Assembly (NCBI RefSeq): GCF_023566055.1
Contig: NZ_JALIQP010000002.1
Location: 1,116,001-1,180,000, forward strand
DNA from: Halosolutus amylolyticus
Lineage (GTDB): Archaea > Halobacteriota > Halobacteria > Halobacteriales > Natrialbaceae
Length of the DNA stretch: 64,000 nt
Direction: 5' to 3'
Below the pieces are notes generated by a model. The model did not search any database, had not been told where the DNA came from, and worked only from the letters and a program-made list of their open reading frames with translations. A program made the translations under genes and the position numbers. This document shows, piece after piece, positions 48,246 through 63,012 of this stretch. Every line of letters begins with the position of its first letter. Position 1 is the stretch's first letter.

Positions 48246-49889
48246 TCACACGTATTCGAATACCCGGGCCATCCCCCGTTCCAGGTGGTAGACGTTGTGA
48301 CAGTGGAACAGCCAGTCGCCGGGGTTGTCCGCCAGGAAGTCGAACGTTACCTGATCGCCGTGTGGCGCGACGAGAACGGTGTCCTTGACCGCGTCGCCCA
48401 CCTGGAAGAAGTGGCCGTGGAGATGCATCGGGTGGATCGCTGGGCTTCGATTTATCATCCGGACTCGAACGTGCTCGCCCTCGCTGATCTCGAGCGGATC
48501 GGCGTCCGGATACGTCTCGCCGTCGATGGTCCACGCGTCGGAGTCAGCGCCCCCCATCATCCTGCCCGATAGCGTGAGGTCGAACGTCCGATCCGGATCC
48601 CCGTCGAGATCCAGCGACTCGAGCGCCTGGAGGTCGCCGTACTCGAGTTCCGGGCCGTCGAACTGCGGCCGTTCGGCGGCCCCGTCCTCGGACGCACCCT
48701 CGTACCGAAGTCTCGCCTCCGCGGGGTCCTCGGTTCCGACGACGGGGTCCGCGACGATCGCCCACTCGCCCGGGGCGTCGGCCTCGACGATCGCGTCGTA
48801 GCGTTCGCCCATACTCATGACGAACGAGTTCACCTCGACGGGTTCGACCGGTCGCCCGTCGGCGTGCGTGACGGTCAGCGGGTGGCCGCCGATGCCGACG
48901 CGATAGGTCGTCGCGCTGCTGGGGTTGATAAACCGGAGACGAACGCGATCGCCCTCCTCAACGTCGAACACCGGCGGATCAGAGGGGAGACGTCCGTTGA
49001 CGAGCAGTCCCTCGTACGGCGGGCGCTGGCTCTGCATCTGACTACCGGGCCCCATGCCGTCGCCGGGCCCCATGCCGTCGCCGGGCCCCATGCCATCGCC
49101 GTTACCGCCAGGGTCCATACCGTCGCTGTTACCGCCAGGGCCCATTCCATCGCCGTTACCGCCAGGGCCCATTCCATCGCCGTTACCGCCAGGGCCCATA
49201 CCGTCGCCATTACCGCCAGGGCCACCGTTTCCGCCGGGGCCCATACCATCACCGTCTCCGCCCGGTCCGCCGTCGGGACCCATCCCGTCACCACCGCCCG
49301 GTGGCGCTTCGATCGAGTCGAGCGCCGGCTCCTCCGGGAGGTAATCGTCGATCTGCAGGGTGTACTCGCGATCGTACTCGACGTGTGGCGATTCTGCTTC
49401 GATAATCAGCGGTCCGTAGAGGCCCCTGTCGAGTTGCAACCCGACGTGGCTGTGGTAGACGTACGTACCCGCCGGCGACGCCTCGTACTCGTACTCGAAC
49501 GTCTCGTCCGACGAGACGGGCTCTTGCGTGACGTCCGGAACGCCGTCCATCGGATTCGGGACGGGAACGCCGTGCCAGTGAATCGTCGTCTCCTCGGGCA
49601 ACCCATTCTCGAGCGAGACGCGGAGCGTCTCCCCCTCGCTCACGCGGAGTTCCGGACCGGGGATCTGCTCGTCGTACAGCCACGTCTCGAGGCTGTCGTC
49701 AGATCCGACGTCGACCTGCCCGCTCGACGCGACCAGCGTTTCGGCTCGTGGCCCCTCGTCGTCTTCCTGTGCGGCCCGCTTACGATTCGCCGATCCGATT
49801 CCGTTCGCGAGTCCAGCGATTCCGACCAGCGTCGCGCCGCCGACGCGCAACACCCGCCGTCGCGGGACGGTTCGATCAGTATCGTCCAT
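48246..49889 (-). CDS. Tat-exported multicopper oxidase with Met/Gly/Asp repeat insert
   Basis: 547 aa. The Tat signal is RRRVLRVGGATLVG. Type 2/3 copper histidines are in IHWHGVPV (104, 106), YHSHVG (146, 148), HPMHLHGHFF and the type 1 block HCHNVYHLERGM. The middle (residues 198-283) holds nine DGM units within GDGMGPGGN-like nonapeptides. Met-rich loops in CueO and some copper proteins bind Cu(I), so this insert may bind or shuttle copper. Likely a periplasmic-side laccase or cuprous oxidase. ATG 49887-49889. Short intergenic gap to DUF3267. Confidence 0.92.
   Translation of the reverse strand: MDDTDRTVPRRRVLRVGGATLVGIAGLANGIGSANRKRAAQEDDEGPRAETLVASSGQVDVGSDDSLETWLYDEQIPGPELRVSEGETLRVSLENGLPEETTIHWHGVPVPNPMDGVPDVTQEPVSSDETFEYEYEASPAGTYVYHSHVGLQLDRGLYGPLIIEAESPHVEYDREYTLQIDDYLPEEPALDSIEAPPGGGDGMGPDGGPGGDGDGMGPGGNGGPGGNGDGMGPGGNGDGMGPGGNGDGMGPGGNSDGMDPGGNGDGMGPGDGMGPGDGMGPGSQMQSQRPPYEGLLVNGRLPSDPPVFDVEEGDRVRLRFINPSSATTYRVGIGGHPLTVTHADGRPVEPVEVNSFVMSMGERYDAIVEADAPGEWAIVADPVVGTEDPAEARLRYEGASEDGAAERPQFDGPELEYGDLQALESLDLDGDPDRTFDLTLSGRMMGGADSDAWTIDGETYPDADPLEISEGEHVRVRMINRSPAIHPMHLHGHFFQVGDAVKDTVLVAPHGDQVTFDFLADNPGDWLFHCHNVYHLERGMARVFEYV
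49041..49298 (-). repeat. 27-bp tandem repeats encoding GDGMGPGGN-like units
   Basis: Nine units, several nearly identical at DNA level (GTTACCGCCAGGGCCC-like blocks at 27-bp period), encode the Met/Gly/Asp insert of the multicopper oxidase. The high DNA identity implies recent expansion, and copy number may vary between strains. Confidence 0.9.
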
Positions 49890-50123
49890 CACAGAATCGC
49901 CCACGACTGCCGACAAAAATGAGGGGCATGCCAGGGCACGTGCTCCTCGAATCACGTCCGAGGACCGCGACCACGAGGTCGGAGAACCCATCGTGAATGC
50001 GATGCGTCGAGTAATCGGTTTCCGATCGGCCGAGACGGTTCAGCCGATGACCGTGGTTCGGCGTCCCGGCCCTCGCGAACCGAATCCGACCGCCTTTATC
50101 TTCGGCGAGCCGTTGGGACGGGT

Positions 50124-62658: not shown

Positions 62659-63012
62659 ATGGCACTGACCCAGATCGACCACGTCAGCGGAGACGAGGAG
62701 ATGCAGGAGTGCATCGACAGCTGTTTCGAGTGTGTACAGGCCTGCGAGTGGTGTGCCGACGAGTGCGCCGACGAGGGCGAGGAGATGGCCGAGTGTCTGC
62801 GCCTCTGTCGCGACGTCGCCGACCTGGCCGAGATGCACGCGCGATTCATGGCCCGCAATTCCGGCTACAGTTCCGACCTGGCCGGGATCACCGCCGACGC
62901 CTGCGAGGAGTGCGCCGACGAGTGCGAGCAACACGATCACGAGCACTGTCAGGTCTGTGCGGACGTCCTCCGGGACTGTGCGGCGACCTGTCGCAACATG
63001 GCGTCGGCCTGA
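62659..63012 (+). CDS. Cys-rich four-helix-bundle copper-binding protein
   Basis: 117 aa with 15 Cys spaced along predicted helices (CIDSCFECVQACEWCADEC, CLRLCRDV, CEECADECEQ, CQVCADVLRDCAATC). This matches the DUF326/Csp-type copper-storage four-helix bundle, where Cys face the core and hold many Cu(I) ions. It would buffer cytoplasmic copper. It has no export signal. A good functional companion to the multicopper oxidase at 48246. Confidence 0.9.
   Translation: MALTQIDHVSGDEEMQECIDSCFECVQACEWCADECADEGEEMAECLRLCRDVADLAEMHARFMARNSGYSSDLAGITADACEECADECEQHDHEHCQVCADVLRDCAATCRNMASA

Follow-up and report, generated by a model that had tools for sequence, protein, structure and literature searches.

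A methionine- and glycine-rich repeat linker in a haloarchaeal multicopper oxidase as a putative Cu(I)-binding segment

The multicopper oxidase CutO of Rhodobacter capsulatus, for which a role in copper tolerance was established by deletion, carries a Tat signal and, joining domains 1 and 2, a Met-rich segment of 41 residues (PMC8456105). CutO lacking the Met-rich segment showed an approximately twofold increase in activity, which was ascribed to more protein, and copper tolerance was comparable at 250 µM copper and reduced at 400 µM. The authors propose sequestration alongside oxidation. In CueO, a Met-rich helix in domain 3 lies over the T1 center, and its removal lowers cuprous oxidase activity (PMC6155172). 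Among haloarchaea, LccA of Haloferax volcanii (HVO_B0205) is a secreted multicopper oxidase and the characterized laccase of the group (PMC6985049). The purpose of Met-rich segments in copper oxidases is still argued, with binding, a filter, or sequestration being considered.

We analyzed a 64,000-nucleotide stretch of Halosolutus amylolyticus DNA (the window; 66% GC). Pfam domains and orthology identified the gene at 48246..49889 (minus strand) as encoding a three-domain multicopper oxidase of 547 aa. Cu-oxidase_3, Cu-oxidase, and Cu-oxidase_2 scored 140.5, 82.1, and 120.1 bits, respectively (cut-offs 21, 21, and 20.4). The reading frame is open, orthologs are 84–86% identical, and the ATG start at 49889 is common to the oxidase and its orthologs (MDDTDRT / MDDNDRT). 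The T1, T2, and T3 copper ligands were all present and invariant among 11 homologs; on the minus strand they lie in HWHG (residues 104–107, 49569..49580), HSH (residues 146–148), HPMHLHGH (residues 486–493, 48411..48434; H486, H489, and H491 invariant), and HCHNVYHLERGM (48270..48305), in which homolog alignment placed the T1/T3 ligands C530 and H535 and the axial M540. Of 91 haloarchaeal rows, 90 have Met as the T1 axial ligand, and in the other row the motif was not found. The N-terminal region (49785..49889, minus strand) contains VPRRRVLR followed by a hydrophobic stretch, and was called a Tat-type signal by eye. No lipobox Cys was found in the clade of the H. amylolyticus oxidase; a simple lipobox pattern was matched in 57 of 91 relatives.

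The fold of an AlphaFold2 model of the oxidase, in which the domains were confident, resembled those of solved laccases (best 6vow, Z 45.6 with an rmsd of 2.5 across 374 residues; Z 44–45 for fungal laccases). An NCBIfam search returned no exact family. The best match was TIGR01480, the CopA/PcoA copper-resistance oxidases, at 264.3 bits, which is below the curated cut-off of 478.95, and we noticed no CopBCD operon in the regions that were read. An antisense ORF of 352 aa (48864–49922, plus strand) overlaps the oxidase gene and reads the same repeats; it was rejected because the minus-strand frame carries the domains and the orthology. A foreign-DNA origin of the oxidase region was also rejected, the GC content nearby being unremarkable.

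The linker between domains 1 and 2, as delimited by HMM boundaries, comprises residues 186–291 (106 aa; 49017..49334, minus strand). It contains a Met/Gly/Asp/Pro/Asn repeat block (49026..49298, minus strand) with nine DGM units and a conserved Met before domain 2 (GSQMQSQ). A first-pass annotation of this DNA had reported nine DGM units at 49041–49298 in a multicopper oxidase and had described them as near-identical 27-bp nonapeptide repeats. The domains and orthologs confirm the gene, and the nine units do fall within that interval. A nine-residue step fits five consecutive Mets, whereas the final three units are six residues long (18 bp) and the opening two irregular; the Met spacings are 13, 15, 9, 9, 9, 9, 6, 6, and 6, the tenth Met being that of GSQMQSQ. 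Tandem Repeats Finder detected a 27-bp repeat of 5.4 copies (49079..49223, 88%), an 18-bp repeat of 3.2 copies (49045..49101, 97% matches), and a 45-bp repeat of 2.1 copies at 79%. The coding pattern GAYGGNATGGGNCCNGGN (DGMGPG) occurred seven times in the 4.6-Mb genome, all within the oxidase gene, and the reversed control occurred 0 times, indicating that the array is not due to chance. The chain was predicted to be disordered, with pLDDT <50 for residues 195–285. The linker has no His. The description "acidic" suits the H. amylolyticus copy, in which the block has 12 Asp and no Glu in 91 residues, and does not extend to the family, in which Asp makes up 7.9% of linkers versus 8.2% of domains.

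To compare linkers, 392 genomes of the order were searched, and 94 matched the last two oxidase domains at E 1e-40 or better. Linkers from 91 different haloarchaeal rows made up the set, after removal of identical rows, of L172, whose domain-1 match is weak, and of fragments that did not have both domains. The match to the oxidase is confined to C-terminal parts in G018:C1:1408760-1409134 (L011) and in G359:C34:86795-87178, each of which contains an internal TAG; both are probably decayed copies. The same oxidase region was present at the same coordinates on two contigs of another genome (G049:C2:10299-11588 and G049:C4:10299-11588).

All 91 rows have a segment between domains 1 and 2; the Met/Gly/Asp insert noted at first is therefore present at this site without being a lone insert. 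The linkers were 16–129 aa long (median 41) and mostly Gly-rich, with short forms resembling LPSDGGMGGGGMGGMMGDVRPP. Met accounted for 8.2% of linker residues versus 1.7% in the folded domains, and His for 0.2%. In 90 of 91 rows at least one Met falls within the last 12 linker residues, whereas 2000 permutations of the linkers gave 65 such rows on average and never more than 77; MM occurred in 56 linkers, as against a permuted average of 26 and a maximum of 42. Linker Met did not co-vary with Met in the domain-3 loop (Spearman 0.12, p 0.28; loop readable in 83 of 91 rows). Of 73 rows from outside haloarchaea, 54 carried four or more Met in this linker. Gly-rich segments elsewhere, sought in 1.26 Mb of haloarchaeal DNA drawn mostly from two genomes, contained 1.9% Met (40 segments), while linkers selected by the same rule contained 7.6% (66). 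Three of the 40 control segments reached or exceeded the Met density of the H. amylolyticus linker, one being the tail of a protein that looks thermosome-like by eye.

In a tree of the oxidases, DGMGPG-type arrays fell into one 16-row clade (SH-aLRT 99; quick method, no bootstrap). The branches around it have long Gly/Pro linkers with few Met (L119, 125 aa and 1 Met; L124, 119 aa and none; also L120–L123 and L005), so that linker length can be separated from Met content. In ten relatives, linkers of at least 58 aa contain 0–2 Met, and such linkers in sister lineages indicate that many Mets are not obligatory. The first-pass annotation had inferred a recent expansion. Neighboring units are indeed nearly identical, and the quite different unit order in L004, of the same genus, shows turnover to be fast; however, DGMGPG-type units occur throughout the clade, which spans several genera. 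The recent element is therefore the turnover alone, in an array type that is itself old.

The codons of the repeats were then compared. Across the 45 perfect DGMGPG units, each of the four codons for Gly, and likewise each of those for Pro, was in use. When X was left free in the 123 GXGP-type units of the clade, it was Met in 80 and encoded by a one-base neighbor of ATG in 8, while third positions of neighboring Gly and Pro codons showed all four bases with a diversity of 0.57–0.73. Among 89 units with at most one mismatch, a limit that inflates amino acid conservation, Met was kept in 78, the two Gly in 86 and 85, Pro in 87, and Asp in 75. Retention of most ATG codons amid scrambled synonymous sites argues for selection on the peptide rather than slippage alone, and judging from these sequences the units appear to be held by such selection. 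This constraint is not proof of a copper role.

These data bear on the possibility that the linker is a neutral spacer of variable length, in which slippage of GC-rich Gly/Pro codons carried Met along from a GGMGG seed containing ATG. The range of linker lengths across the family and among close relatives (69–129 aa in rows 86–90% identical to the H. amylolyticus oxidase in the last two domains), the long Met-poor linkers of L119–L124 and L005, the rise of Met count with length (Spearman 0.38), and the predicted disorder would all suit a neutral spacer. We nevertheless consider it doubtful, given that ATG is kept against its one-step variants (80 versus 8) where synonymous sites vary, that Met adjoins domain 2 in 90 of 91 rows, and that Gly-rich segments elsewhere are Met-poor.

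The genomic neighborhood was examined for copper-related genes. A gene at 62659..63012 (plus strand), approximately 13 kb from the oxidase, encodes a DUF326/Csp-type four-helix-bundle copper-binding protein of 117 aa (DUF326, 30.8 bits, cut-off 20.4; Csp1 proper, TIGR04401, 36.5 bits, below the NCBIfam cut-off of 100). This is the Cys-rich gene on which a copper theme had been proposed, and its identity is borne out by the domain match. Alone, it is weak copper context, and no copper ATPase was found among the few annotated genes beside the H. amylolyticus oxidase. A second DUF326/Csp-type gene lies approximately 30 kb from the oxidase, past the end of the window (G000:C2:1194991-1195335).

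Across genomes, the copper theme was stronger than first stated. Of the 94 genomes with the oxidase, 34 have a DUF326/Csp-type gene no more than 30 kb from it, against 2.3 expected, a significance inflated by relatedness, and 13 genomes, also related, have one within 5 kb, against 0.39 expected. The 94-genome count excludes matches below 90 bits; a count over the first 28 genomes was made without this cut and includes a 41-bit fragment in G072. Distances between the two genes varied from 0.5 to 28 kb, arguing that the link is not one inherited block. On plasmid pHTUR01 of Haloterrigena turkmenica, the oxidase is followed after approximately 0.7 kb by a four-helix-bundle copper protein. The order on a plasmid of Haloterrigena alkaliphila is copper P-type ATPase, DUF302, methyltransferase, oxidase, DsbA, SCO, and four-helix-bundle copper protein, and that on a plasmid of Halorussus salilacus is four-helix-bundle copper protein, MBL-fold protein, oxidase, and plastocyanin-type protein. 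On comparing linkers in 89 of the 91 rows (L010 and L013 lie outside the sampled genomes), those with more than 2 Met were near DUF326 in 31 of 70 rows versus 1 of 19 with at most 2 Met (p 0.001, at a cut-off chosen after looking; p 0.55 at 1 Met and 0.0005 at 3 Met). For linkers of at least 58 aa, the counts were 0 of 10 with at most 2 Met and 9 of 18 with at least 4 Met. A tree-corrected test, with 6 pairs only, was not significant (median p 0.5). The greater frequency of Met-rich linkers near DUF326 is a lead only.

Other Met-rich proteins were sought in the same loci. With the oxidase family excluded, 40-residue windows containing at least 8 Met occurred in six ORFs of 408 kb of oxidase loci (L195 and L209 being the same gene), and in two ORFs of control DNA totaling 800 kb, namely a different type of oxidase and a likely antisense artifact (L224). 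In Saliphagus infecundisoli, an ORF approximately 2.5 kb before the oxidase (L028:1800-2534) has a secreted-looking, extremely Met-rich C-terminal part (GGMMGMMNGGMMDGMMGGGMDNMM); it had no Pfam or NCBIfam match and is possibly an extracellular copper sponge. Small ORFs resembling membrane proteins, with MPMMG/GGMM segments and SHOCT-like C-termini, recurred in oxidase loci (L195:15287-15688, L196:9487-9936, L197:7794-8249, and L198:5550-5924); SHOCT scored above the cut-off for the L198 ORF and below it for the L196 ORF. The copper island that holds the oxidase in Halorussus salilacus also encodes a protein of the plastocyanin/azurin type (L210:11492-12232), in which a GGGMMGPGMMNG linker precedes a hydrophobic segment.

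Considering these observations together, we favor, as somewhat the likelier case, that the linker serves an exported copper oxidase as a flexible chain, rich in Met and free of His, by which Cu(I) is captured or buffered, with putative binding by its repeats. The family-wide Met enrichment at this site, its excess over other Gly-rich segments, the apparent selection in the clade, and the placement of the gene family in copper islands lend partial support to this idea, which had been raised from the first reading of the DNA. The Gly/Pro chain of the linker would be disordered and would present thioether side chains every 6, 9, or 13–15 residues. After Tat export, the Met side chains may take up Cu(I) extracellularly at weak, exchangeable sites; Met-bound Cu(I) would raise the local supply to the T1 center in domain 3 and buffer excess Cu(I), and the oxidase, with Cu(I) as its presumed substrate, would turn it into Cu(II) with O2. 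Turnover of 18/27-bp repeats in frame could shift the number of Met sites quickly with the frame intact, and more units may be beneficial. The oxidase probably helps the cell cope with toxic copper.

The main doubts about this Cu(I)-collecting linker concern the long linkers poor in Met, the mild phenotype of CutO, and competition by chloride. Cu(I) is bound strongly by the molar chloride of haloarchaeal surroundings, so weak thioether sites may be out-competed. Also counted against a Cu(I) role is the thermosome-like protein of the same genome (by eye), which has a Met-Gly tail, GGAPGGMGGGMGGGMGGMM, a caution that GGM chains need not bind copper. This protein is encoded in frame 2 of L226 with a GGMGGGMGGGMGGMM tail and is not known to have a copper role. 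The GGM tails of chaperonins offer a comparison for a structural Met-Gly chain, a weakly sticky, flexible segment that would, without copper, dock on the enzyme, gate the substrate pocket, or keep the domains in register at high salt. Besides the thermosome-like tail, the increased activity measured for CutO after deletion of its segment is what a gate might produce. Such a chain is nonetheless improbable in our view, as Met-rich segments with His recur at this site outside haloarchaea (at least 4 Met and 2 His in 26 of 73 rows) and Met-rich segments are also present in unrelated proteins of copper islands. Still less credible is that the surface Met are sacrificial antioxidants that scavenge oxidants near the copper centers and are recycled or spent in protecting the enzyme. 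Many exposed Met in an O2-reducing copper enzyme would accord with this, as would a constraint on Met that tolerates changes in number; copper handling better explains the copper-gene neighborhood.

An extension of the Cu(I)-binding proposal, which we put forward tentatively, is that the linker acts as an evolvable copper "dial": a disordered, His-free Met array in which the number of Cu(I) sites is tuned, within short spans of evolution, by in-frame gain and loss of repeats, each DGMGPG unit being selected, with Met-rich forms in copper islands and Met-poor forms outside. Recurrence of the Gly-Met style in unrelated neighbors, namely the SHOCT-type membrane proteins, the plastocyanin-type protein, and the secreted Met-rich protein, might then reflect a shared extracellular Cu(I) chemistry suited to brine. 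The haloarchaeal oxidases form a natural series in which fold and site stay constant and the linkers range over 16–129 residues and 0–10 Met, long ones occurring both with and without Met; this series separates length from Met content, which a single deletion cannot. The family would be a case in which tandem repeats tune a metal site through their copy number, and it raises the question of how weak thioether sites work in molar chloride.

Of the known systems, LccA is likewise, by its published description, a haloarchaeal multicopper oxidase. Escherichia coli CueO is an exported multicopper oxidase that binds extra Cu(I) by Met residues, and had been named as the model at first. As regards position this does not hold, as the Met-rich region of CueO lies in domain 3 over T1, whereas the segment described here joins domains 1 and 2. 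At the CueO position in domain 3, placed by eye, the H. amylolyticus oxidase has only SGRMMGGADSDA, and its score against the CueO model NF008205 was 99.9, below the cut-off of 525. A second multicopper oxidase of the same genome (G000:C2:732690-734615, minus strand; L223:12690-14615), PhsA/CueO-like and below cut-offs, has a Met-rich PGMDDGDMGGMNMDGGMDMDEPM immediately ahead of domain 3, roughly where CueO has its own. Between these two oxidases, the genome thus has a Met-rich segment at each of the two known sites.

CutO is the nearest precedent, as it combines a Met-rich segment at the same site between domains 1 and 2 with a Cu(I)-oxidase-type multicopper oxidase and a Tat signal. The H. 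amylolyticus linker shares the position and the Met enrichment and lacks the mixing of His with Met. The CutO segment contains Met with His and Ala and no tandem array, whereas the haloarchaeal segment is His-free, rich in Gly/Pro/Asp/Asn, and built of repeats; it is about twice as long as that of CutO in H. amylolyticus and up to three times as long in relatives. We read the repeat block as the haloarchaeal version of the Met-rich segment that copper-tolerance multicopper oxidases carry between domains 1 and 2. A Met-rich segment at this position is already known, whereas the open-access literature searched yielded no account of the His-free, tandem-repeat form with selected units, or of any Gly/Met repeat linker in a haloarchaeal oxidase.
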